The notes under the pieces: model-generated
Databases searched by the model: none
What the model was told of the DNA's origin: nothing
The model's input: only the letters and a program-made list of their open reading frames with translations
Program-made: the position numbers and the translations under genes
Assembly (NCBI RefSeq): GCF_030063475.1
Contig: NZ_JASIRT010000012.1
Location: forward strand, 62,001 to 126,000
DNA from: Roseomonas sp. E05
GTDB taxonomy: Bacteria > Pseudomonadota > Alphaproteobacteria > Acetobacterales > Acetobacteraceae
DNA: 64,000 nt
Reading direction: 5' to 3'
Shown here: in pieces, positions 1,826-14,191 of the stretch
Numbering within the stretch: the first letter of the stretch is position 1
Layout: the number at the start of each line of letters is the position of its first letter

Positions 1826-2206
1826 TCAGGCCTCGCGGGCGATGATGCCGTTCACCGTGCGGCAGGCCGCCACCACGGCGAGCAGCAACAGGCCCTGCCG
1901 GATCAGCCCGCCCGGGGTGAACAGGTATCCGCCCGCCCGCAGCTGGCTGGGGACGTAGTGCAGGAACTGCTGCAGCTCCGGGTCGAGCGTCAGGCCGCCC
2001 AGGGCCTGCAGCCCCAGCCACCAGAGCGCGCCCACCAGCAGCAGCAGCGGTCCGGCCAGTTCCGCCACCAACTCGATGAAGGTCAGGCTGAAGGTCACCA
2101 GCCCCCAGAAGAGGATCGAGGCCCCACGCAGGACCAGCCGGGACGTGCCGCCGCGGCTCTGGCGATAGGTGGCGAAGCTGTCGGAATGGGCCGGGGCGGT
2201 GGGCAT
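1826..2206 (-). CDS. Small membrane protein of unknown function, two or three helices
   Basis: A 126-residue protein starting MPTAPAHSDSFATYRQSRGG. I chose the ATG at 2206 because AAGGGAAAG lies just upstream and the longer frame (to 2338) is Arg/Pro-rich and looks non-coding. A hydrophobic segment from LVLRGASILFWGLVTFSL through LLLLVGALWWLGLQ gives two likely helices, and a third lies near the C-terminus (GLLLLAVVAACRTV). I do not recognise the family. It is transcribed away from the hyuAB operon and may share the divergent intergenic region. Confidence 0.6.
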   Translation of the reverse strand: MPTAPAHSDSFATYRQSRGGTSRLVLRGASILFWGLVTFSLTFIELVAELAGPLLLLVGALWWLGLQALGGLTLDPELQQFLHYVPSQLRAGGYLFTPGGLIRQGLLLLAVVAACRTVNGIIAREA

Positions 2207-2397
2207 GGCGGCTTTCCCTTCTGGATGCGGGCCCTTCTGGACAGGGGCGGCCCCCCTGGCGCCGGGCGGACCCCGTCCGCCCCCGCGGCGCGCGCGGCGC
2301 GACGGACCTGCAAGGCATACCGGCATCGGCGGCGGCATTCAAACCAATCACGCGCGCTGAACCGCCGCCTCGCCAAGCAGCCCCGGAATGGGCATGC

Positions 2398-2413
2398 TGG
2401 CACGAGAGTTGCT
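2398..2413 (+). promoter_or_regulatory. Sigma-54 (-24/-12) promoter for hyuAB-dctPQM
   Basis: The sequence TGGCACGAGAGTTGCT matches the RpoN consensus TGGCACG-N4-TTGC(A/T) at every conserved position. The GG is at 2399-2400, the GC at 2411-2412, with exactly 10 bases between them. Predicted transcription start is near 2424, about 80 bases before the hyuA start. It implies control by an enhancer-binding protein, which is not in the window. No convincing sigma-70 promoter was seen in the 2207-2502 gap. Confidence 0.75.
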
Positions 2414-2502
2414 CCGCCTCCGCCGCGCACGGAGGCCAGGCACGGGTTGCCCCGCCACGGGAAATCAGCCGGGCGGATCCAGAGACGCAGGGAGACAGGG
2501 AC

Positions 2503-4590
2503 TTGAGTTCGAGCTCAAACGTGCGGCTGGCGGCGGATATCGGCGGCACCTTCACCGACATCGTTCTCGATGCCGACGGTACGCGCCGCACGCGCAAGGT
2601 GCTGACCACGCCGGCTGCGCCGGAGGAGGGCGTGCTGGAGGGTGTTTCCCTGGTCCTGCAGGATGCGGGCCTGCGCTTTTCCGACATCGACGTCTTCGTC
2701 CATGGCACGACGCTGGCCACCAACGCCATCATCGAACGCCGTGGCGCCAGGACGGCGCTGATCGCCACGGCGGGCTTCCGCGACGTGCTGGAGATCGGCA
2801 CCGAGAGCCGCTACGACCAATACGACCTGACGCTGGAGAAGCCGGTGCCGCTGGTGCCGCGCGCGCTGCGCTTCACCGTGCCGGAGCGGATGGACGCCGC
2901 GGGCCGCGTGCGCCTGCCGCTCGACGAGGCGGCGCTGGACGCGCTGGTGCCGGCGCTCCGCGAGGCCGGGGTGCAGAGCGTCGCCTTCGCCTTCCTGCAC
3001 GCCTATGCCAACCCGGCGCATGAGCTGGCCGCCGGCGCCCGGCTGAAGGCGGCGATGCCGGGGCTTTCCATCACCCTCTCGCACGAGGTCTGCCCGGAGG
3101 TGCGGGAATACGAGCGCACCTCGACGGCGGTGGCCAATGCCTATGTGCAGCCGCTGATGGAGGGCTATCTCGGCCGCATGGCCGCCGCCCTGCGCGAGCG
3201 GCAGTACCGCGGCGCGACCTATCTGGTGACCTCCGGCGGCGGGCTGACCGCGCTGGAGACGGCACAGAAGTTCCCGGTGCGGCTGGTGGAATCCGGCCCC
3301 GCCGGCGGCGCCATCTTCGCCGCGCAGGTGGCCTTGCGGGCCGGCGAGCAGAAGGTGCTCTCCTTCGACATGGGCGGCACCACCGCCAAGATCTGCCTGA
3401 TCGAGAAGGGCGAGCCGGCCACCTCCCGCTTCTTCGAGGTGGACCGCACGGCGCGTTTCCTGAAGGGCTCCGGCCTGCCGCTGCGCATCCCCGTCATCGA
3501 GATGGTGGAGATCGGCGCCGGCGGCGGCTCGATCGCCCAGGTGGACGCGCTGCAGCGGGTGACGGTGGGGCCGGAAAGCGCCTCCTCCGTGCCCGGCCCG
3601 GCCTGCTACGGGCGCGGCGGCACCCGCCCGGCGGTGACCGACGCCGACGTGGCGCTCGGCCTGATCGAGCCGGAGGGTTTTGCCGGTGGCAGCATGACGC
3701 TGCAGCCGGAGCTTTCCCGCCAGGCGCTCGGCAGCGAGATCGGCAAGAAGCTCGGCCTGTCGCCCGACATGGCGGCCTATGCCGTCTATGAGATGGTCTG
3801 CGAGAACATGGCCAGCGCCGCCCGCGTGCACGCTGCCGAGCGCGGCGCCGTCATCGGCCAGCACACCATGATCGCCTTCGGCGGCGCCGCGCCGCTGCAT
3901 GCCGCGCGGGTGGCCGAGAAGGTCGGCGTGCCGCGCGTCGTGGTGCCGCCGAATGCCGGCGTCGGCTCGGCGGTCGGCTTCCTGGCCGCGCCGGTAGCCT
4001 ATGAGATCGTGCGCAGCCGCCATGCGTTGCTGGACGAGAGCTTCGACGGCCCGGCCATCTCGGCGCTGTTCCAGGAGATGGCGGTCTCGGCCCGCGCGCT
4101 GGTCGAGCCGGGCGCGCGCGGTGCGCCCCTCTTCGAGCGGCGCACCGCCTTCATGCGCTATGTCGGCCAGGGCCACGAGATCACCGTGGCGCTGCCGAAC
4201 CGCGAGCTGGGCGCCGAGGACGTGGCCGAGCTGCGCCGCATCTTCGAGGCGGAATACGCGGCGCAGTTCGCCCGCGCCATTCCGGCGGCGGCGATCGAGG
4301 TGCTGAACTGGTCGGTGCTGGTCTCCACGGTGGCCGAGCCGCCGGCGGTGGCGGCGCCCGTCGCCCCCGCGCCGGCGCCGAAGCCGGCCGGGCTGCGGCT
4401 GGTCTTCGACGGCCGCAGCGAGAAGGCCGTGGAGGTGCCGGTCTATGACCGCACCGCCATGGCGCCCGGCGCCGTGGTCCCCGGCCCGGCACTGATCGCC
4501 GAGGACGAGACCACCACCTACGTATCCGGCAGCTTCGATGCCCATGTGGACGGCAGCGGCTGCATCGTGATGGAGCAGAAGGCGGCATGA
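2503..4590 (+). CDS. hyuA: Hydantoinase/oxoprolinase family protein, subunit A
   Basis: A 695-residue ATP-dependent ring-opening amidohydrolase subunit (N-methylhydantoinase A / 5-oxoprolinase N-terminal half). The N-terminus has the ASKHA-type phosphate-binding motif AADIGGTFTDIVL, and FDMGGTTAKICLIEKG near residue 290 marks the second lobe; the C-terminal third is the acetone carboxylase/HyuA-like domain. Start is TTG at 2503, supported by GGGAGACAGGGAC directly upstream. It overlaps hyuB by four bases (ATGA), so the subunits are translationally coupled. The family acts on cyclic amides such as hydantoins, 5-oxoproline and creatinine derivatives; the specific substrate cannot be read from sequence. 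Co-transcription with a TRAP importer argues for catabolism of an imported compound. Confidence 0.93.
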   Translation: MSSSSNVRLAADIGGTFTDIVLDADGTRRTRKVLTTPAAPEEGVLEGVSLVLQDAGLRFSDIDVFVHGTTLATNAIIERRGARTALIATAGFRDVLEIGTESRYDQYDLTLEKPVPLVPRALRFTVPERMDAAGRVRLPLDEAALDALVPALREAGVQSVAFAFLHAYANPAHELAAGARLKAAMPGLSITLSHEVCPEVREYERTSTAVANAYVQPLMEGYLGRMAAALRERQYRGATYLVTSGGGLTALETAQKFPVRLVESGPAGGAIFAAQVALRAGEQKVLSFDMGGTTAKICLIEKGEPATSRFFEVDRTARFLKGSGLPLRIPVIEMVEIGAGGGSIAQVDALQRVTVGPESASSVPGPACYGRGGTRPAVTDADVALGLIEPEGFAGGSMTLQPELSRQALGSEIGKKLGLSPDMAAYAVYEMVCENMASAARVHAAERGAVIGQHTMIAFGGAAPLHAARVAEKVGVPRVVVPPNAGVGSAVGFLAAPVAYEIVRSRHALLDESFDGPAISALFQEMAVSARALVEPGARGAPLFERRTAFMRYVGQGHEITVALPNRELGAEDVAELRRIFEAEYAAQFARAIPAAAIEVLNWSVLVSTVAEPPAVAAPVAPAPAPKPAGLRLVFDGRSEKAVEVPVYDRTAMAPGAVVPGPALIAEDETTTYVSGSFDAHVDGSGCIVMEQKAA

Positions 4591-6260
4591 GCACCGAGAC
4601 CCGCCCGCAGGCGAGCCTGATCGACCTGCAGATCATGTGGAACCGCCTGATCGCCGTGGTCGGCGAGCAGGCGCAGGTGCTGATCCGCACCGCCTTCAGC
4701 CCGATCGTGCGCGAATGCGGCGACATCTCCGCCGGCATCTTCGACCTGGAGGGGCGGATGCTGGCGCAGGCCGTCACCGGCACCCCGGGCCATGTCAACT
4801 CGATGGCGGAATCGGTGAAGCACTTCCTCCGCCACTTCCCCATCGAGACGATGAAGGAGGGCGACGCCTACATCACCAACGACCCGTGGATGGGCACGGG
4901 CCACCTGAACGACTTCGTCATCACCACGCCCGCCTTCCACCGGGGCAAGCTGGTCGGCCTGTTCTCCTGCACCAGCCACCTGATGGACATCGGCGGCCTG
5001 GGCAACGGTCCCGAGGCCTCCGACGTCTTCATGGAGGGCCTCTATATCCCGATGCTGAAGCTCATCGACCAGGGCCAGGTCAATGAGACGCTGATGGCGA
5101 TGATCCGCGCCAACACGCGGCTGCCGGTGGACACCGAGGGCGACACCTACTCCCTCGCCGCCTGCAACGATGTCGGCGCGCGCGCCCTCTCCGCCATGAT
5201 GGAGGAGTTCGGCATCGACACGCTGGAGCCGCTCGCCGAATACATCATCGCGCGCTCGCGCGAGGCGGTGCTGGCCGAGGTGGCGAAGCTGCCCAGAGGC
5301 ACCTGGCGCTACAGCATGACGGTGGACGGCTACGACCACCCGCTGACGCTGCAGGCCGAGCTGACCGTCTCCGAGAGCGGCATCCATGTGGACTACACCG
5401 GCACCTCGCAGCAGGTGCGGCGTGGCATCAACGTGCCGCTGGCCTATACCACGGCCTATACGGTCTTCGGCCTGGGCTGCATCGTCGCCGCCAACATCCC
5501 GAACAATGCCGGCTCGCTGGCGCCGCTCACCGTCTCGGCGCCGCGCGGCGTGGTGCTGAACGCGCCGAAGCCGGCGCCGGTCTCCTCGCGGCATGTGCTC
5601 GGCCAGATGCTGCCCGACATGGTCTTCGGCTGCCTGCGCCAGGCCATCCCCGACCGCGTGCCGGCGGAGGGCACCTCCTGCCTCTGGAACATCGTCGTGC
5701 GCGGCGAGCGGCAGGAGAGCCGCGGGCCGAACCATGGCTATGCGCTGGCCATCACCACCAATGGCGGCACCGGCGGCCGCCCGGCGCAGGACGGGCTCTC
5801 GGCCACCGCCTTCCCCAGCGGCGTGCAGGGCACGCCGGTGGAGATCGCCGAGATCCAGTCGCCGCTGATCTTCTGGCGCAAGGAACTGCGGCCGGACAGC
5901 GGCGGCGCCGGCGCGCATCGCGGCGGCCTCGGGCAGATCATGGAGATCGGCAACAACGAGGACGCGCCCTTCGAGCTGCTGGCGGCCTTCGACCGCATCG
6001 CCTATCCGCCGCGCGGTGCGGAGGGCGGCGGCGGGGGCGCACCAGGCCATGTCGGCCTGGCCTCGGGCGCCACGCTGCGCGGCAAGGGGCTGCAGGTCAT
6101 CCCGCCCGGCGAGCGGCTGGTGGTGCTGACCCCCGGCGGCGGCGGCCTCGGCGACCCGAAGGCGCGCCCGGCGGCACAGCGCGCGGCCGACCTGCGCAAC
6201 GGGCTGGTGACGCCCGAGGCCGCGGCGCGGCTCTATGGGGCGCCACAGGCCGCCGAATAG
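4587..6260 (+). CDS. hyuB: Hydantoinase/oxoprolinase family protein, subunit B
   Basis: A 557-residue HyuB-type subunit. Family hallmarks include IRTAFSPIVRECGDISAGIFD near the N-terminus, GDAYITNDPWMGTGHLNDF, the central HLMDIGG, and the glycine-rich C-terminal HRGGLGQIMEIG followed by TPGGGGLGDP. It would complete the heteromeric enzyme with HyuA, which binds the nucleotide while HyuB contributes to the hydrolytic centre. Start ATG overlaps the hyuA stop. Length is normal for the family (about 550-600). It is followed by a 69-base gap with a hairpin before dctP. Confidence 0.93.
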   Translation: MSTETRPQASLIDLQIMWNRLIAVVGEQAQVLIRTAFSPIVRECGDISAGIFDLEGRMLAQAVTGTPGHVNSMAESVKHFLRHFPIETMKEGDAYITNDPWMGTGHLNDFVITTPAFHRGKLVGLFSCTSHLMDIGGLGNGPEASDVFMEGLYIPMLKLIDQGQVNETLMAMIRANTRLPVDTEGDTYSLAACNDVGARALSAMMEEFGIDTLEPLAEYIIARSREAVLAEVAKLPRGTWRYSMTVDGYDHPLTLQAELTVSESGIHVDYTGTSQQVRRGINVPLAYTTAYTVFGLGCIVAANIPNNAGSLAPLTVSAPRGVVLNAPKPAPVSSRHVLGQMLPDMVFGCLRQAIPDRVPAEGTSCLWNIVVRGERQESRGPNHGYALAITTNGGTGGRPAQDGLSATAFPSGVQGTPVEIAEIQSPLIFWRKELRPDSGGAGAHRGGLGQIMEIGNNEDAPFELLAAFDRIAYPPRGAEGGGGGAPGHVGLASGATLRGKGLQVIPPGERLVVLTPGGGGLGDPKARPAAQRAADLRNGLVTPEAAARLYGAPQAAE

Positions 6261-6284
6261 GCCTTCAGAACCAGAACAGGAAAA

Positions 6285-6304
6285 GCCGGGCCGCAGAGCC
6301 CGGC
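6285..6304 (+). other. Hairpin in the hyuB-dctP gap
   Basis: GCCGGGC, six-base loop, GCCCGGC: a perfect 7-bp stem lying between the hyuB stop and the ribosome-binding site (GGGAGA) of dctP. There is no U-tract, so it is more likely a processing or mRNA-stabilising structure than a terminator. Binding-protein genes in operons often need higher transcript levels than their neighbours. Confidence 0.45.
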
Positions 6305-6329
6305 GCAGAGCTTCACGGGAGACTTACGA

Positions 6330-7328
6330 ATGACCACGCGTCGCATCCTGATGACGGCGGCTCTCGGCACGCTCGCCGCCCCCGCCCTGATCCGCTCCGC
6401 CCGGGCGGCCACCCAGCTCGACCTCGCCACCGTCTGGCCGGACGGCAACTTCCACACCCAGAACGCCAAGCGCTTCGCCGCCGAGGTGGCCAAGGCCACC
6501 GGCAACGAGGTGCAGATCACCGTCCATTCCGGCGGCGCGCTCGGCTTCAAGGGGCCGGAGCTGCTGCGCTCGGTGCGCGACGGGCTGGTGCCGATGGCCG
6601 ATGTGCTGAACAACCAGCAGATCGGCGATGCGCCGATCATGGGCATCGAATCGATTCCCTTCCTGATCGGCTCCTTCGACGAGCTGAAGGTGCTGGATAA
6701 GTACCTTCTGCCGGAATACGAGCGCGTGGTGAAGGCCAACAACCAGAAGATGCTCTACACGGTGCCCTGGCCGACGCAGTACATGCACCTGAAGTCGCCG
6801 ATCGCCTCGATCGACGGGCTGCGCGGCGTGCGCATCCGCGCCTCCGACAAGGGCGTGGCCGACATGTGCACCGCGCTCGGCGCCGCCGGCACCATGATGC
6901 CCTGGGGCGAGGTGGTGCCCGCGCTCGCCTCCGGCCGCATCGATGGCGTCTGCACCTCGGCGACCTCGGGCGTGGACGGGCGGTTCTGGGAGTTCATGAA
7001 GGTCGCCTACCGCACCAACCACACCTTCTCCTCGCAGCTCGTCACCATCAATCTCGACACCTGGAACGACCTCTCCGCCGCCAACCGCGAGAAGATCGAG
7101 ACCCTGGCCAAGACGCTGCAGCCGGAGTTCTGGGACGTCGCCGCCAAGGACGACACCACCAGCGTGCAGCGGCTGACCAAGGAGGGCATGCAGGTGGTGG
7201 ACGTGGACCCCGCCATGCTGGCCGAGATGCGCAAGCGCACCGCCTTCATGAAGGACGACTTCATCAAGCGCGTGCCTTCCGCAAAGCCGATCATCGAGGC
7301 CTATCTGGCCGAGCTCGGGAGGGCCTGA
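6330..7328 (+). CDS. dctP: TRAP transporter substrate-binding protein, DctP family
   Basis: A 332-residue periplasmic solute receptor. The leader has an Arg-Arg pair in TTRRILMTAALG followed by a hydrophobic segment and an ARAA cleavage region, so Tat export is plausible. The body shows DctP features: GGALGFKGPELLRSVRDG, a GLRGVRIRAS strand and the WGEVVPALASGRIDGVCTS substrate-site region, where an Arg usually salt-bridges a carboxylate ligand. It precedes dctQ and dctM with almost no spacing. In this operon it presumably delivers the hyuAB substrate or its precursor, probably an organic acid-like cyclic amide. Confidence 0.92.
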   Translation: MTTRRILMTAALGTLAAPALIRSARAATQLDLATVWPDGNFHTQNAKRFAAEVAKATGNEVQITVHSGGALGFKGPELLRSVRDGLVPMADVLNNQQIGDAPIMGIESIPFLIGSFDELKVLDKYLLPEYERVVKANNQKMLYTVPWPTQYMHLKSPIASIDGLRGVRIRASDKGVADMCTALGAAGTMMPWGEVVPALASGRIDGVCTSATSGVDGRFWEFMKVAYRTNHTFSSQLVTINLDTWNDLSAANREKIETLAKTLQPEFWDVAAKDDTTSVQRLTKEGMQVVDVDPAMLAEMRKRTAFMKDDFIKRVPSAKPIIEAYLAELGRA

Positions 7329-7329
7329 T

Positions 7330-7920
7330 TTGGCCTCTCCCGTGCTGCATCCGGCACGGGCGGCGCCACCCTCGGGGATGGCGCCGGCGGTGCTGCGCTT
7401 CTCCGACGGCGTCGCGGCGGCCAGCGGCGCCTTCGCCTCGCTCTGCCTGGTGGCGCTCCTGCTGCTGATCCTGGCCGAGGTGGGGGCCGGCCTGCTCGGC
7501 AAGCTCTTTCCCGGCTTCGGCGGCGAGATCACCGTCGCCTGGGAATACGGCGCCTATCTGATGGGGGCCGTCTTCCTGTTCGGCGCGGCGGCGGGGCTGC
7601 GCGCCGGCACGCATATCCGCGTCTCCATCCTGCTGGCGCGTGCGGGGCGCGGCTTCACGCTGGTGCTGGAGCTGGTGGCGACGCTGATCGGCCTTTTCGT
7701 CACCGGGTTCCTGGCCTGGGCGCTGGTGCAGTTCGCGCTGCGCGCCTGGAGCAGCGGCCGGCTCTCCAGCGGCAGCCTGACGCCGCTCTGGATCCCCGAC
7801 GCCGTGCTGGCGCTCGGCGCCGTGTTGCTGGCCGTGCAGATGGCGACGCGGCTGCTGCGCGTGCTGCTCGGCCTGCCCACCGAGGATGAGAGCCTGAAGG
7901 CCGGGAGTGTCGGCGAATGA
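7330..7920 (+). CDS. dctQ: TRAP transporter small permease, DctQ family
   Basis: A 196-residue four-helix integral membrane protein, the small subunit of the TRAP permease. Hydrophobic segments lie near residues 30-52, 65-88, 100-130 and 150-170. I use TTG at 7330 because GGGAGG lies seven bases upstream inside the end of dctP; an in-frame ATG at 7378 would remove 16 residues and has a weaker ribosome-binding site. It overlaps dctM by four bases (ATGA). Confidence 0.85.
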   Translation: MASPVLHPARAAPPSGMAPAVLRFSDGVAAASGAFASLCLVALLLLILAEVGAGLLGKLFPGFGGEITVAWEYGAYLMGAVFLFGAAAGLRAGTHIRVSILLARAGRGFTLVLELVATLIGLFVTGFLAWALVQFALRAWSSGRLSSGSLTPLWIPDAVLALGAVLLAVQMATRLLRVLLGLPTEDESLKAGSVGE

Positions 7921-9221
7921 CGGGGGTGATGGGCGCGCTCTTCGCCGCGCTGTTCGGCATGCTCGCGGTCGGCGCCTGGGTCGGCATCGCGCTGATGGCG
8001 ACCTCCATGGTGCTGCTCTGGGGCTTCCGCAGCCTGCCGGTGGACCGGCTGCTGGCGCAGTACACCTTCAACATCCTGACCACCTCCGAGCTGGTGGCGC
8101 TGCCGCTCTTCATCCTGATGGGCGAGTTCCTGTTCCGCACGCGGCTCTCGCGCTCGTTGTTCAACGGGCTGGCGCCCTGGGCGGCGCTGCTGCCGGGGCG
8201 GCTGCTGCATGTCAACGTGGTCGGCTGCACCATCTTCGCGGCGATCTCCGGCTCCTCCGCCGCAACGACGCAGGTGGTGGGCCGCATCGCGCTGAGCGAG
8301 CTGAAGGCGCGCGGCTATGACCGGCGCATCGCCATCGGCAGCCTGGCGGGGGCGGGGACGCTCGGCTTCCTCATCCCGCCCTCCAGCGTGATGATCATCT
8401 ACGGCGTGCTGGCCGATGAATCCGTGCTGCGGCTGTTCACCGCCGGCTTCCTGCCGGGGATGCTGCTGGCCGGCTGCTTCATGGCCTGGGTGATGCTGCA
8501 CAGCAAGCTGCAGCCCGGGCTGCTGCCGCCGCAGAGCGCGGAGGAGCGTGGCATGCGCTGGGGTCAGCGCTTCGCCGCGCTGCGCGAGCTGGCGCCGACG
8601 CTGTTCCTGATCCTCTGCGTGCTGGGCTCGATGTATGCCGGCATCGCCACGCCCTCCGAGGCGGCGGCGGTGGGCGTGCTGGGCGCCGTGCTGGTCAGCG
8701 GGCTGCAGGGCGAGCTGAACTGGCCGACGCTGCGCGCCATCGGCATCGGTGCGGCGCAGACCTGTGGCATGATCGGGCTGATCGTGCTCGGCGCGTCGAT
8801 TCTCGGCAATGTCGCGGCCATCCTCGGCGTGCCGCGCCAGGTGGCGGAGATCGTCACGAGCTGGGGTCTCTCGCCGCTGATGCTGATCGTGGCGCTGACG
8901 CTGCTCTACCTGATCCTCGGCTGCTTCCTCGATGGCTTCTCAATGATCGTGATGACGCTGCCGGTGGTGCTGCCGCTCGTGACGGCCGCGGGCTTCGACA
9001 AGCTGTGGTTCGGCGTCTATCTCGTCATCGCCGTGGAGATGGCGCAGATCACGCCGCCGGTGGGGTTCAACCTCTTCGTCATCCAGGGGCTGACGGGGGA
9101 ATCGCTGAGCACCATCGCCCGTGTCACGCTGCCCTACCTGCTGATCATGATGGGCTTCGTCATCCTGCTGGCGCTGGTGCCGGGCATCGTCAGCCTCGGG
9201 CCTTCGCTGCTGCTGGGGTAA
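7917..9221 (+). CDS. dctM: TRAP transporter large permease, DctM family
   Basis: A 434-residue membrane protein with about a dozen hydrophobic segments, the ion-coupled channel-forming subunit of the TRAP system. Characteristic stretches are GSSAATTQVVGRIALSELK, YDRRIAIGSLAGAGTLGFLI and the IPPSSVMIIYGVLADES re-entrant region, then ITPPVGFNLFVIQG in the second half, matching the inverted-repeat ion-binding loops of TRAP transporters. It closes the hyuAB-TRAP operon and is followed at once by a family 1 repeat arm. Confidence 0.93.
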   Translation: MTGVMGALFAALFGMLAVGAWVGIALMATSMVLLWGFRSLPVDRLLAQYTFNILTTSELVALPLFILMGEFLFRTRLSRSLFNGLAPWAALLPGRLLHVNVVGCTIFAAISGSSAATTQVVGRIALSELKARGYDRRIAIGSLAGAGTLGFLIPPSSVMIIYGVLADESVLRLFTAGFLPGMLLAGCFMAWVMLHSKLQPGLLPPQSAEERGMRWGQRFAALRELAPTLFLILCVLGSMYAGIATPSEAAAVGVLGAVLVSGLQGELNWPTLRAIGIGAAQTCGMIGLIVLGASILGNVAAILGVPRQVAEIVTSWGLSPLMLIVALTLLYLILGCFLDGFSMIVMTLPVVLPLVTAAGFDKLWFGVYLVIAVEMAQITPPVGFNLFVIQGLTGESLSTIARVTLPYLLIMMGFVILLALVPGIVSLGPSLLLG

Positions 9222-9228
9222 GAAAAAG

Positions 9229-9270
9229 GCCGGGGGAAGGAATTCCCCCGGACCCCCATCTTTTTTCTTC
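9229..9270 (+). repeat. Family 1 palindromic repeat, arm 1
   Basis: Hairpin CCGGGGGAA-GGAA-TTCCCCCGG followed by ACCCCCATCTTTTTTCTTC, preceded by an A-run (AAAAAGG). It lies directly after the dctM stop, hairpin side towards the gene. No inverted partner follows. The A-run/hairpin/T-run layout resembles a bidirectional terminator. Confidence 0.8.
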
Positions 9271-9400
9271 GAGTGCGCTGCTCAGCCGCCAGGGCTCCCC
9301 TTTTTCCCGCACCCCGTCACAAGCCGATGGACTCCGCCGCCGAGTGGCGGCAGCGTGAAAGCGAAGCGCCGATCAAGGCGCCAAAAGGGAGGACAGGTTC

Positions 9401-10378
9401 ATGAAGCCTTGGACGAGGCGCGCCGTGGTGGCTGCCATGGGGGCTCTGCCGGCCATCCGGCCCGGCGCCGCTGCCGAAGCCGGAAACTGGCCCAGCGAGA
9501 CCATCCGGATCGTCGTGCCTTTCGCGCCCGGCGGCTCGACCGACGCCGCGGCCCGCCTGGTCGCGCCGGGGCTTCAGCAGCGCCTCGGGGTGCCCATCAT
9601 CGTCGAGAACCGCAGCGGCGCAGCCGGCAGCATCGGCGCGGATGTCGTGGCGAAGGCAAAGCCCGACGGGTACACGTGGCTGCTCACCTTCGACTCCCAC
9701 GCCCTGATGCCGATCCTGGTGCCGAGTCTGCCCTTCGATCTGGAGAAGGACCTGGACCCGGTGACGCAGATCGGCCGGGCGCCCTATGTCACGGCCTGCC
9801 AGCCCTCCAAGCCCTATCGCAGCATGGAGGATGTCTTCGCGGCCGCGCGCAAGGGGCCGGTCTCCTTCGGCTCGACGGGGAACGGCACGATCGGGCACCT
9901 GGTCATGCTGATGATGGCGCAGCGCAAGGACGTCGAGATCACCCACCTGCCGTATCGCAGCGGCGGCCTGGCGGTGAACGATGCCGTGGCCGGGCATGTG
10001 GACATGATGATCGGCAGCGCCGCCCTGCTGGCCTCCCAGATCTCGGGGGGCACGCTGCGGCCCCTGATGCAGTTCGGCAGCAAGCGCCTGCCGGCGCTGC
10101 CTGATGTGCCGACCGCCACGGAGTCCGGCTTCCCCGATCTGACCGCCGAGGCCTGGTGGGGCGTCTTCGCCCCGGCGGGCGTGCCGGCGCCGATCCTCGC
10201 CCGCTTCCAGGCCGCCGTGATCGACGCCTACCGCGAGCCCCGCATCGCCCGGCAGTTCACCGAGGTGAACCAGGCCGAGCTGGTGCTCGGCGACGCGCCG
10301 GCCCTGGCCAAGTTCGTGGAGAGCCAGATCCGCATCTGGGGCGAGGTGGCGCGCGCCAACCATGTCCGGCCGGATTGA
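9401..10378 (+). CDS. Bug/TctC-family periplasmic tripartite tricarboxylate-type binding protein
   Basis: A 325-residue periplasmic binding protein. The leader has Arg-Arg (TRRAVVAAMGAL) and an Ala-rich cleavage region. The mature start WPSETIRIVVPFAPGGSTD is the Bug family signature, and ENRSGAAGSIGADVVAKA plus GTGNGTIGHL are the usual ligand loops that bind a carboxylate through backbone amides. No TctA or TctB membrane gene is adjacent, as is usual for the many orphan Bug proteins of Burkholderia and Roseomonas relatives. The ligand is unknown. The gap before it (9271-9400) shows nothing beyond repeat arm 1. Confidence 0.9.
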   Translation: MKPWTRRAVVAAMGALPAIRPGAAAEAGNWPSETIRIVVPFAPGGSTDAAARLVAPGLQQRLGVPIIVENRSGAAGSIGADVVAKAKPDGYTWLLTFDSHALMPILVPSLPFDLEKDLDPVTQIGRAPYVTACQPSKPYRSMEDVFAAARKGPVSFGSTGNGTIGHLVMLMMAQRKDVEITHLPYRSGGLAVNDAVAGHVDMMIGSAALLASQISGGTLRPLMQFGSKRLPALPDVPTATESGFPDLTAEAWWGVFAPAGVPAPILARFQAAVIDAYREPRIARQFTEVNQAELVLGDAPALAKFVESQIRIWGEVARANHVRPD

Positions 10379-10480
10379 TGCCGCCTTCTTCGCGCGGCAC
10401 CACTGGCGAAGGCGAGCGGCCGGCAGGCGGCGGAACCGGGCGCCGGCCCGATCTCCAGGTTTCCGAAAAGGGAGTGCACC

Positions 10481-10852
10481 ATGAAGCAGGCTGACGAATT
10501 CCATAACCTCGATGATGCGGCCGGCGGCATCCTGCGCGAGCTCGCCCCTGGCCTGACCACGCGGATCTTCGCCGGCGAGCATGCCATGCTGTCCATCGTC
10601 ACCATCGCGCCCAATGCCGCGGGCGAGATGCATCACCATCCCGAGGAGCAATGGGGCGTCCTGCTGGAGGGGAGCGCCATCCGCATCCAGGGCGACGAGG
10701 AGATTCCCGTCCGCAAGGGCGATTTCTGGCGCACGCCGGGCGGGGTTCCGCACACCATGCGCGCCGGGCCGGAGGGCGCGCGGGTGCTCGACATCTTCAG
10801 CCCGCCGCGGCCGCAGTACCGCGTGGCCGGGAAGGGCTTCGGCACCACGTGA
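10481..10852 (+). CDS. Cupin domain protein
   Basis: A 123-residue single-domain cupin. The first metal motif is visible as EMHHHPEEQWGVLLEG and the second half has KGDFWRTPGGVPHTM, giving the His/His/Glu/His ligand set of the jelly-roll fold. Small cupins of this type may be dioxygenases, isomerases or sugar/acid binders, and nothing here decides between them. Start ATG follows AAAAGGGAG. It lies 100 bases after the Bug-type binding protein in the same direction and may be co-transcribed with it. Confidence 0.82.
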   Translation: MKQADEFHNLDDAAGGILRELAPGLTTRIFAGEHAMLSIVTIAPNAAGEMHHHPEEQWGVLLEGSAIRIQGDEEIPVRKGDFWRTPGGVPHTMRAGPEGARVLDIFSPPRPQYRVAGKGFGTT

Positions 10853-10924
10853 GATCGGATGACCCCCAGCCGCGCCTCCCGTGATGGGCGGGGTGGCGTA
10901 AACATGGCGCCTCGCGGCTGCTCC

Positions 10925-11035
10925 TCAGAGGGCCGCCGCGCCATCCGGGGGCGGCCTCAAGGAGGTCGAGCCTTTCCCGCCCAGCCAAGCGCAGAATAGG
11001 AACAGAAGACCGGCGGAAGCGAGGAGGAGAAGCAT
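10925..11035 (-). CDS. Possible 36-residue membrane peptide
   Basis: The frame reads MLLLLASAGLLFLFCAWLGG, then a short polar tail ending PDGAAAL. It would be a single-helix peptide. A weak purine-rich stretch (AGGGACAGAGG) precedes the ATG. Short hydrophobic frames arise by chance in GC-rich DNA, so this is only a candidate. Confidence 0.22.
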   Translation of the reverse strand: MLLLLASAGLLFLFCAWLGGKGSTSLRPPPDGAAAL

Positions 11036-11203: not shown

Positions 11204-11893
11204 TCACCCGGCGTAGGTGACGCGCACCTCGCCGACGCCCTCGCAGGTGCCGTGCAGGCTGTCGCCCGGCTTCACGGCGCTGACGCCGGCCGGGGTGCCG
11301 GTCATCAGCAGGTCGCCCGGCAGCAGTTCCACATAGCGCGAGAGATAGGCGATGCTCTCCGGCACCGACCAGATCATCTGGTTCATGTCGCCGGTCTGCT
11401 GCACCTTGCCGTTCACGCTGACCTCGATCTTGCCCTTGCCGGGATGGCCGATCCTGGACGCCGGGATGATGGCGCTGATCGGGCAGGACTGGTCGAAGCC
11501 CTTCGACAGCTCCCAGGGGCGGCCGAGCTTCTTGGCTTCCGCCTGGATGTCGCGCCGCGTCATGTCCAGACCGACGGCATAGCCATAGACGTGCGAGAGC
11601 GCGTCCTCCACGGCGATGTCCTTGCCGCCCTTGCCGATGGCGACGACCAGCTCGATCTCGTGGTGCAGGTCCTTGGTCTGCACGGGGAAGGGCAGGCTGC
11701 CGCCGCCCGGCACCACCGCCGTCGCCGGCTTGGCGAAGAAGAAGGGCGGCTCGCGGTCGGGGTCGTGGCCCATCTCGCGGGCGTGGTCGGCATAGTTGCG
11801 GCCGACGCACCAGATGCGGCGCACCGGGAAGACGGCGGTCTCGCCCTCGACCGGCACGGTGGCCGGCTGCGGGGCCTCGATGACGTACTGCAA
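11204..11893 (-). CDS. Fumarylacetoacetate hydrolase (FAH) family protein
   Basis: A 229-residue single-domain FAH fold protein. The start of the domain shows IWCVGRNYADHAREMG; the metal-binding acidic residues are in HHEIELVVAIGKGG and AVGLDMTRRDIQ, and LLPGDLLMTGTPAGVSAVKPGD is the C-terminal signature. Members include fumarylpyruvate hydrolase, acylpyruvases and oxaloacetate decarboxylases; the short length and sequence resemble acylpyruvate/fumarylpyruvate hydrolases (YcgM/NagK type). I set the start at TTG 11893 because GGGGAGGA lies seven bases upstream; the longer ATG frame adds a Pro/Arg-rich leader with no site. A sigma-70-like promoter lies upstream. Confidence 0.88.
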   Translation of the reverse strand: MQYVIEAPQPATVPVEGETAVFPVRRIWCVGRNYADHAREMGHDPDREPPFFFAKPATAVVPGGGSLPFPVQTKDLHHEIELVVAIGKGGKDIAVEDALSHVYGYAVGLDMTRRDIQAEAKKLGRPWELSKGFDQSCPISAIIPASRIGHPGKGKIEVSVNGKVQQTGDMNQMIWSVPESIAYLSRYVELLPGDLLMTGTPAGVSAVKPGDSLHGTCEGVGEVRVTYAG

Positions 11894-11945
11894 GGCAGGT
11901 CCTCCCCTGGCCCGCTGCCGGGCCGGTCCAAGCGGTTGCCGGAAT

Positions 11946-11974
11946 GGGTTAGGAGCGCCTGGAAAACCCGTCAA
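11946..11974 (-). promoter_or_regulatory. Candidate sigma-70 promoter for the FAH-family gene
   Basis: On the minus strand TTGACG (11969-11974), a 17-base spacer, then TAACCC (11946-11951). The -35 matches 5 of 6 positions and spacing is ideal; the -10 is weak, as is common in GC-rich Alphaproteobacteria. It would give a leader of about 45 bases. Confidence 0.4.
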
Positions 11975-12054
11975 GCCAGCGGCTTCCGCGCAATCCGGTG
12001 TTGGCGGCGGGGAGGGGGATGCTAGGCTTGCGGCCTCTGCGGAAGGAGGGGGCG

Positions 12055-13452
12055 ATGGGCCGCTATGTCAGCGACTTCCGGGGCGAGCGGCACCGCTTCG
12101 CGGACCTGCGGGCGGTGCTGGCGAAGGCCTCCCCCCGCCGCTCGGGCGACGAGCTGGCCGGGCTGGCGGCGGAGAGCGACGCGCAGCGCATCGCCGCCCG
12201 CGCCGTGCTGGCCGACCTGCCGCTGACCCGCTTCCTGGAGGAGCCGCTGGTTCCCTACGAGCGGGACGAGGTGACGCGGCTGATCCAGGATATGCAGGAC
12301 ATGGCCGCCTTCGCCCCCGTTCGCCACCTGACCGTGGGTGGGCTGCGGGACTGGCTGCTCTCCGACGAGGCCACCACCGAGGCGCTGGCCGCCCTGGCAC
12401 CGGGCCTGACGCCGGAGATGGCCGCCGCCGCCTGCAAGCTGATGCGCAACCAGGACCTGATCGCGGTGGCGCGGCGCTGCCGGGTGGTCACGGCATTCCG
12501 CAGCACGATCGGCCTGCCCGGGCGGCTCGCCACGCGCCTGCAGCCCAACCACCCCGCGGACGACCTGCGCGGCATCGCCGCCGCCACGCTGGACGGATTG
12601 CTCCTCGGCGCCGGTGATGCGGTGATCGGCGTCAACCCCGCCACCGACAGCCTCTCCAACGGCCTGGCGCTGCTGGAGATGCTGGACGGGCTGCGCGCCC
12701 GCCACGCCATCCCCACCCAGACCTGCGTGCTGACCCATGTGACCAACGCCATCCGCCTCGTCGAGCGCGGCGCGCCGGTGGACCTGGTGTTCCAGTCCAT
12801 CGCCGGGACGGAGGCGGCCAATGCCGGCTTCGGCGTTTCCCTTGCCGTGCTGCGGGAGGCGCAGGAGGCGGCGCTGGCGCTGAAGCGTGGCACGGCGGGC
12901 GACAACGTGATGTATTTCGAGACCGGCCAGGGTGCCGCGCTCTCCGCCGACGCGCATCACGGCATCGACCAGCAAACCGTGGAGGCGCGCAGCTACGCCG
13001 TCGCCCGCGCCTTCCGCCCGCTGCTGGTGAACACCGTGGTCGGCTTCATCGGACCGGAATACCTCTATGACGGCAAGCAGATCATCCGCGCCGGGCTGGA
13101 GGACCATTTCTGCGCCAAATTGCTCGGCGTGCCGATGGGCGTGGATGTCTGCTACACCAACCATGCCGAGGCCGACCAGGACGACATGGACACGCTGATG
13201 ACGCTGCTCGCCGTTGCCGGCTGCAACTTCATCATCACCGTGCCCGGCGCGGACGATATCATGCTCAACTACCAGAGCACCTCCTTCCATGACGCGCTCT
13301 ACCTGCGCTCCACGCTCGGCCTGCGCGCCGCGCCGGAATTCGAGGCCTGGCTGGAAGCGATGGGCCTGATGGACGGCGCCGGCCGCCTCCACACTCTGGC
13401 CGAGGCCCCGATGCGCCGCCTGCTGGCCGGAGGCGTCGCCGATGCCGCCTGA
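12055..13452 (+). CDS. eutB: Ethanolamine ammonia-lyase large subunit
   Basis: A 465-residue TIM-barrel subunit that, with EutC and adenosylcobalamin, converts ethanolamine to acetaldehyde and ammonia. Recognisable stretches are FADLRAVLAKASPRRSGDELAGLAA at the N-terminus, GLPGRLATRLQPNHPADD, AVIGVNPATDSLSNGLALLEMLD, QSIAGTEAANAGFGVSLAVL and MGVDVCYTNHAEADQDDMD. Start ATG 12055 follows GGAAGGAGGGGGCG; the longer frame from 11998 lacks a site. It overlaps eutC by 11 bases. No microcompartment shell, EutA reactivase or EutR regulator lies nearby, so the enzyme probably works free in the cytoplasm to release ammonia. Confidence 0.96.
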   Translation: MGRYVSDFRGERHRFADLRAVLAKASPRRSGDELAGLAAESDAQRIAARAVLADLPLTRFLEEPLVPYERDEVTRLIQDMQDMAAFAPVRHLTVGGLRDWLLSDEATTEALAALAPGLTPEMAAAACKLMRNQDLIAVARRCRVVTAFRSTIGLPGRLATRLQPNHPADDLRGIAAATLDGLLLGAGDAVIGVNPATDSLSNGLALLEMLDGLRARHAIPTQTCVLTHVTNAIRLVERGAPVDLVFQSIAGTEAANAGFGVSLAVLREAQEAALALKRGTAGDNVMYFETGQGAALSADAHHGIDQQTVEARSYAVARAFRPLLVNTVVGFIGPEYLYDGKQIIRAGLEDHFCAKLLGVPMGVDVCYTNHAEADQDDMDTLMTLLAVAGCNFIITVPGADDIMLNYQSTSFHDALYLRSTLGLRAAPEFEAWLEAMGLMDGAGRLHTLAEAPMRRLLAGGVADAA

Positions 13453-14191
13453 GCGCGACACCCCCGCCGCCGATCCCTGGGCGCCGCTGCGGCGGATGAC
13501 GCCGGCGCGCATCGGCCTCGGCCGCCGGGGTGACGCGCCGCCGCTGGAGGCTGTGCTCGACTTTCAACTCGCCCATGCACGGGCGCGCGACGCGGTCCAC
13601 GCGGCGCTCGACGTGGCCACGCTGGTCACCGCGCTGGAGGGGCGCCCGCATGTCGTCGTGCGCAGCCAGGCGCCGGAGCGCGGCACCTATCTCCGCCGGC
13701 CGGACCTTGGCCGGCGTCTCGATCCGGGGTGCCTCCGCGACCTGCCGCACGGCGCGTGGGACGCGGCCTTCGTCCTGGCGGACGGGCTTTCCGCCACGGC
13801 CGTGCAGCGGCACGCGCTTCCCTTGTTGCAGGCCACTCTCGCGCGGCTGCCGGGCTGGCGCATCGCGCCTGTCGTCATCGCCACCCAGGCGCGGGTGGCG
13901 CTGGGCGACGAGATCGGCGCTGCCCTCGGCGCGCGGCTCTGCGCCATGCTGATCGGCGAACGTCCCGGCCTTTCGGTGGCGGATAGCCTGGGCGTCTATC
14001 TCACCCATGCTCCGCAGCCGGGGCGGCGGGATTCGGAGCGCAACTGCATCTCCAACATCCATCAATCCGGCGGACTCTCCTATGAGGCCGCGGCCGACAA
14101 GCTGGCCTGGCTGATGGCCGAGGCGCTGCGTCTGAAGCTCACCGGGATCGGGTTGAAGGACGACCAGCAGGCGGCATTGCCTGGCACCTGA
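13442..14191 (+). CDS. eutC: Ethanolamine ammonia-lyase small subunit
   Basis: A 249-residue EutC subunit that forms the B12-binding interface with EutB. The family motif TPARIGLGRRGDAPPLEAVLDFQLAHARARDAVH is at the N-terminus, followed by RSQAPERGTYLRRPDLGRRL and the C-terminal SERNCISNIHQSGGLSYEAAADKL with its conserved Cys-Ile-Ser-Asn-Ile. Its ATG lies inside the end of eutB, giving coupled translation. It is followed within four bases by a paired family 1 repeat that separates it from convergent zwf. Confidence 0.96.
   Translation: MPPERDTPAADPWAPLRRMTPARIGLGRRGDAPPLEAVLDFQLAHARARDAVHAALDVATLVTALEGRPHVVVRSQAPERGTYLRRPDLGRRLDPGCLRDLPHGAWDAAFVLADGLSATAVQRHALPLLQATLARLPGWRIAPVVIATQARVALGDEIGAALGARLCAMLIGERPGLSVADSLGVYLTHAPQPGRRDSERNCISNIHQSGGLSYEAAADKLAWLMAEALRLKLTGIGLKDDQQAALPGT

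Follow-up and report, generated by a model that had tools for sequence, protein, structure and literature searches.

Control of nitrogen scavenging by NtrC and sigma-54 is textbook knowledge in Proteobacteria, where it extends to rut, glnK-amtB, nitrate and amino-acid uptake genes. The locus described here resembles such operons in its consensus -24/-12 promoter, in a host genome that encodes RpoN and a GAFTGA-bearing NtrC, and in the similar boxes that stand there before rutA, glnK-like, nitrate and amino-acid uptake genes, but differs from them in carrying a hydantoinase-family enzyme together with a TRAP importer, a combination that to our knowledge is not among the textbook NtrC/sigma-54 members. 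A hydantoin-utilisation gene of Bradyrhizobium diazoefficiens is described as a direct RpoN target, and an RpoN box precedes the Paraburkholderia phymatum hydantoinase operon Bphy_6150-52 (PMC5979394). Both share with our locus, as far as they are described, a hydantoinase-type gene under RpoN; the Bradyrhizobium loci that we examined ourselves carry an orthologous hyuA with a box. On the import side, the closest solved relatives of the receptor DctP are Bordetella pertussis DctP6 and DctP7 and the marine protein 6wgm, which have in common with it a WPxQ motif and a conserved arginine region but are only 23-29% identical to it, with several positions that are common to pyroglutamate receptors changed in DctP (MAD for IGE, QYM for QGI/QGF). 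DctP6 and DctP7 bind 5-oxoproline, DctP7 at 0.3 uM, and are encoded close to a gene for a eukaryotic-type 5-oxoprolinase (PMC13274462), whereas the enzyme linked to the importer here is the two-subunit HyuAB. HyuAB in turn resembles Pseudomonas jessenii CapAB in its two subunits, its phosphate-binding motifs and its Asp-His-Asp-His metal site, but HyuA is 33% identical to CapA and scores far below the equivalog cut-off, and the context here is that of a TRAP importer. The parts are ordinary and their arrangement is well conserved, and RpoN control of a Bradyrhizobium hydantoin gene has already been reported. Our literature search found no paper that deals with this hyuAB-TRAP operon, with the conserved promoter or with the substrate, which does not prove that none exists.

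We propose, with a probability of roughly three in four, that the locus is an NtrC/sigma-54-driven hyuAB-TRAP operon for a carboxylated cyclic amide, most likely 5-oxoproline or a close analogue. We infer the NtrC dependence, the substrate and the reaction as follows: at low cellular nitrogen, phosphorylated NtrC would activate RpoN-RNA polymerase at one sigma-54 promoter (2397-2413), from which hyuA-hyuB-dctP-dctQ-dctM would be transcribed; the TRAP system would import a small carboxylate-bearing cyclic amide, with 5-oxo-L-proline (pyroglutamate) or a close analogue likeliest to judge by the receptor's relatives; HyuA would activate the ring amide with ATP and HyuB would hydrolyse it at its metal site; and nitrogen would be assimilated from the resulting open-chain amino acid, which in the case of 5-oxoproline would be glutamate. 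More broadly, and with the odds somewhat against it, we tentatively suggest a widespread, unnamed NtrC/sigma-54 pathway that scavenges pyroglutamate or a close carboxylated lactam through a 5-oxoprolinase-like HyuAB and a dedicated TRAP importer, replacing pxpABC in this Pseudoroseomonas-group genome and common to many Bradyrhizobium. Many genes of the hydantoinase/oxoprolinase family carry an annotation but no known substrate. For the hyuAB set, a promoter shared by two alphaproteobacterial groups would provide a tie to nitrogen starvation; the receptor linked to it yields a short list of ligands, 5-oxoproline first, which allows a direct choice of growth and binding tests. For Bradyrhizobium, whether in soil or in nodules, the operon could be relevant to nitrogen nutrition.

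Operon layout and the HyuAB enzyme

Sequence analysis supports the promoter and the conservation of this element, the gene content of the operon, its catalytic motifs, and NtrC as the one GAFTGA activator recognised. All five genes lie on the plus strand with overlaps or with gaps of at most 70 bases (Table 1), and are probably co-transcribed; the Pfam matches of DctP, DctQ and DctM are all three above cut-off. The hairpin that follows dctM likely marks the end of the operon; on the minus strand it has a T-run, and on the plus strand one was read about 10 bases past the stem.

Table 1. Features of the hyuAB-TRAP operon; positions are those of the window, the whole 64 kb stretch of DNA that was analysed
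Feature	Position	Strand	Description
sigma-54 (-24/-12) promoter CTGGCACGAGAGTTGCT	2397..2413	+	exact consensus; sole such match in window; conserved in orthologues
hyuA	2503..4590	+	695 aa, TTG start; putative ATPase subunit, ATP-dependent lactamase/hydantoinase family; Pfam Hydant_A_N, Hydantoinase_A, Hydant_A_C
hyuB	4587..6260	+	557 aa, putative metal-site subunit; 4-base overlap with hyuA stop; Pfam Hydantoinase_B 504 bits
stem-loop GCCGGGC-CGCAGA-GCCCGGC	6285..6304	+	hyuB-dctP gap, directly before dctP ribosome-binding site
dctP	6330..7328	+	332 aa, TRAP solute-binding protein, signal peptide-like start; Pfam DctP
dctQ	7330..7920	+	196 aa, TRAP small membrane subunit; Pfam DctQ
dctM	7917..9221	+	434 aa, TRAP large permease; Pfam DctM 283 bits; TIGR00786 349 bits (cut-off 268)
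terminator-like hairpin CCGGGGGAAGGAATTCCCCCGG	9230..9251	.	3' of dctM; 9-pair stem

The initial annotation had called HyuAB a two-subunit, ATP-dependent ring-opening enzyme, and both the family matches and the conserved catalytic residues argue for this. Hydantoinase_A (270 bits) and Hydantoinase_B (504 bits) cover most of the two subunits, and the HyuA phosphate motifs DxGGTxTD and DxGGT are present as DIGGTFTD at residue 12 and DMGGT at residue 289. HyuB has counterparts of all four CapB metal ligands, D41, H99, D102 and H124, which are essential in CapB and belong to the residues named for the family (PMC8453981). The adenosine motif GxxPGP reads SSVPGP in HyuA, with the first glycine replaced and PGP kept; we do not take this alone to exclude the family, and keep the assignment because the domain matches are full-length and all other motifs are present. 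By these matches, HyuAB is an ATP-dependent enzyme of the lactamase/hydantoinase family. Within it HyuA forms a clade of its own: its PDB relatives are CapA and N-methylhydantoinase, to which it is 33% and 34% identical, and with a fused paralogue encoded in its own genome it shares 46% identity. Against the caprolactamase (CapAB) equivalog, the scores were 470 (HyuA) and 201 bits versus cut-offs of 1000. The usual bacterial 5-oxoprolinase subunit is pxpA, for which we found no match (PF03746) in the genome, and by sequence HyuAB itself does not belong to the PxpABC 5-oxoprolinase family. Lys40 of CapA, considered as a divider between oxoprolinases and lactamases, was dropped when position 40 of the CapA PDB sequence was counted as a residue other than lysine.

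Receptor and candidate substrate

Import of a nitrogen-containing ring compound by the operon's own TRAP system, as first suggested, agrees with the family matches, with the refinement that the TRAP genes are adjacent in part of the loci; the substrate, earlier left unassigned, is probably a carboxylated lactam, and 5-oxoproline heads the list. The three best PDB matches of the DctP sequence are the pyroglutamate receptors 2pfy (DctP7), 6wgm and 2pfz (DctP6), and the same three come first when its predicted structure (mean pLDDT 80.8) is searched with Foldseek; VIA-align 2 puts four chains level at the top, among them 4n4u, which is not annotated as a pyroglutamate receptor. Because the closest relatives by sequence and by Foldseek bind pyroglutamate, 5-oxoproline would be the leading candidate, at a little short of an even bet, with another carboxylated cyclic amide about as likely.

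The strongest alternative accordingly concerns the ligand: with the same promoter and regulation, the operon would serve a different cyclic amide (a hydantoin, a lactam, a succinimide-like compound or an oxidised purine or pyrimidine ring), DctP having diverged from its pyroglutamate-binding relatives. We give this close to an even chance, given the changed positions in DctP, the separation of the HyuA clade from CapA (33%) and N-methylhydantoinase (34%), and the diverse activities of the ATP-dependent lactamase family, in which CapAB, a relative of HyuAB, has no 5-oxoprolinase activity (PMC8453981). It has against it, however, that the closest solved relatives of DctP all bind pyroglutamate, that pxpA was not detectable in the genome, and that, in a few genomes only, a D-glutamate cyclase gene lies by or near hyuA relatives.

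Enzymes of the D-glutamate cyclase family yield 5-oxo-D-proline. Such a gene directly precedes a 58%-identical hyuAB pair in one genome (G009; L071 1626-2540) and lies near a 52%-identical hyuA in another (G029), which hints at 5-oxoproline chemistry in the G009-related clade. As a general partner of the operon it was rejected, being found near a hyuA relative in three genomes only.

NtrC and the nitrogen regulon

Two forms of control had been offered at the outset, nitrogen limitation or an inducer-specific activator; our results support the former and argue against the latter. The host genome (5.73 Mb, estimated 100% complete) contains one copy of rpoN (225 bits) with an intact RpoN box, ARRTVAKYRE. 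Two of its proteins match PF00158 strongly (192-243 bits) and four others weakly (22-27 bits). The two strong ones are encoded near each other on one contig and are named NtrC (TIGR01818, 699 bits) and NtrX (709 bits) by curated models. The GAFTGA loop is required for action on sigma-54; it is present in NtrC, at residue 278 of the ORF read, and missing from NtrX. By these matches, NtrC is the sole recognisable sigma-54-competent activator in the genome, and because it alone qualifies among the strong PF00158 proteins we favour nitrogen limitation, acting through NtrC, as the probable control of the operon.

The distribution of boxes is in line with NtrC and nitrogen limitation, since the others precede nitrogen-acquisition genes. 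As counted from search matches, the genome holds nine near-consensus boxes, that of hyuA included; the other eight stand before two peptide ABC systems, rutA with an amidase, an amino-acid ABC system, a CN-hydrolase with an M20 hydrolase, an NMT1-type ABC system, an ANTAR-type regulator with an NMT1-type protein, and a NarK-family transporter. An 11/12 box, TGGCACGCCGCTCGCA, also lies at -57 of a glnK-like PII gene. The boxes before the NarK-family nitrate transporter and the ANTAR regulator/NMT1-type gene pair lie at 4221-4236 and 6193-6208 (minus) of locus L055. A search for NtrC sites in the 300 nt upstream of the nine boxes and of 13 orthologues, by enteric-type dyads and de novo inverted 4-mers, returned GC-rich background only, and no clear TGCACC-N5-GGTGCA dyad or shared inverted repeat was picked out.

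A sigma-54-dependent operon driven by a substrate-specific enhancer-binding protein instead of NtrC is improbable. The element GCATAGGTGCCNNGCA, conserved some 50 nt ahead of the box in most Bradyrhizobium loci, makes a dedicated factor possible there, but the strong candidates in the host genome are NtrC and the GAFTGA-less NtrX only, its other boxes precede general nitrogen genes, and no activator gene adjoins the operon.

The same element, which stands some 110 nt before hyuA in L144 and in the majority of the other Bradyrhizobium loci, was not seen in the Roseomonas group. One other copy occurs in three of the four Bradyrhizobium genomes searched, in each case inside a coding region, and as a general regulon motif the element (GCATAGGTGCC) was discarded on that ground.

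The sigma-54 box, its conservation and the neighbourhood

The box, TGGCACGAGAGTTGCT at 2398-2413 (plus strand), matches TGGCAC-N5-TTGCW exactly, and its GG (2399-2400) and GC (2411-2412) stand in -24/-12 spacing. The TTG start of hyuA (2503) lies 89 bases downstream, which confirms the RpoN consensus with exact spacing that had been placed some 90 bases before the gene, and the predicted transcription start is near 2424. TGGCAYNNNNNTTGCW has one match in the whole window, the hyuA box itself, against 0.05 expected from shuffling (a match in 5 of 100 shuffles). TGGCACNNNNNTTGCW has 6 matches in the window's own genome, versus 1 for the reversed control, and 83 versus 37 in 19 same-genus genomes. 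A single match is by itself weak evidence and the bare pattern is not decisive; the box convinces by its position and conservation.

We scored a 12-position sigma-54 box, at a threshold of at least 11/12, within 260 nt upstream of hyuA in 80 orthologue loci (7 of the Pseudoroseomonas/Roseomonas group, 71 labelled Bradyrhizobium, 1 labelled Frankia with the same arrangement, and 1 Bosea; the Frankia-labelled locus is counted below among 72 Bradyrhizobium loci). The HyuA orthologues in Pseudoroseomonas/Roseomonas and about 72 Bradyrhizobium loci are 71-96% identical. A box of at least 11/12 was found in 77 of the 80 loci, which are related by descent and are not 80 independent events, versus 2 of the 870 remaining ORFs of these loci; 55 of the 80 have a 12/12 box. 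Bradyrhizobium is placed in a different order from Roseomonas, and the flanking sequence is largely unlike between the two sets of loci. Among the 14 same-genus loci (HyuA 84-96% identical, own copy counted), some of which come from the same genomes as the 7 above, the box reaches at least 11/12 in 13, with TGGCAY allowed, and is a degenerate 9/12 in one; both the distance to hyuA and the surroundings vary, and 0.5% of dinucleotide shuffles of the 200 nt upstream score at least 11. More distant HyuA relatives (56-58%) from the same bacterial family lack the box. Because the box is conserved and the genome encodes an RpoN whose RpoN box is intact, sigma-54 control of the hyuA operon, as originally claimed, is strongly supported. 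A chance match, with another sigma factor reading the operon, is already disfavoured and very improbable: nearly half of the 83 matches in the genus could be chance, but the 77 of 80 orthologues against 2 of 870 control ORFs, and the finding of no sigma-70-like promoter across 2200-11000, speak against it.

The order hyuA-hyuB-dctP-dctQ-dctM is found in 48 of the 72 Bradyrhizobium loci, in Bosea and in 4 of the 14 same-genus loci, and the TRAP genes are non-adjacent in the remaining 24 and 10, respectively. Four other species of the genus have TRAP orthologues (DctP 73-77%) at other places; for the TRAP genes so placed in G001, G002, G003 and G007 we found no strict sigma-54 box and, in two, a looser one of 10/12. 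The hyuAB pair can keep its promoter without an adjoining importer. In Bosea sp. BH3 (L213), hyuAB and the TRAP genes stand together and the best box within 260 nt upstream scores 7/12, so that the pairing is kept there without a recognisable sigma-54 box. We gave up the idea that TRAP linkage arose late and locally within the genus, since the 48 Bradyrhizobium loci and Bosea share the order.

The stem-loop between hyuB and dctP is present in all four same-genus genomes with linked TRAP genes, with one pair changed on both sides, and may tune dctP expression or mRNA stability. Between dctM and an FAA-hydrolase gene, the window holds a TctC-type binding-protein gene and a cupin gene (9401-10852), which had no match at this place in G013, G015 and G004, where the FAA-hydrolase gene follows dctM; by this comparison the two look like a local insertion. 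The FAA-hydrolase gene and the ethanolamine ammonia-lyase genes eutB and eutC (11204-14191) come after the operon and are kept beside it in those three genomes, and eutBC possibly represent another nitrogen-release function.
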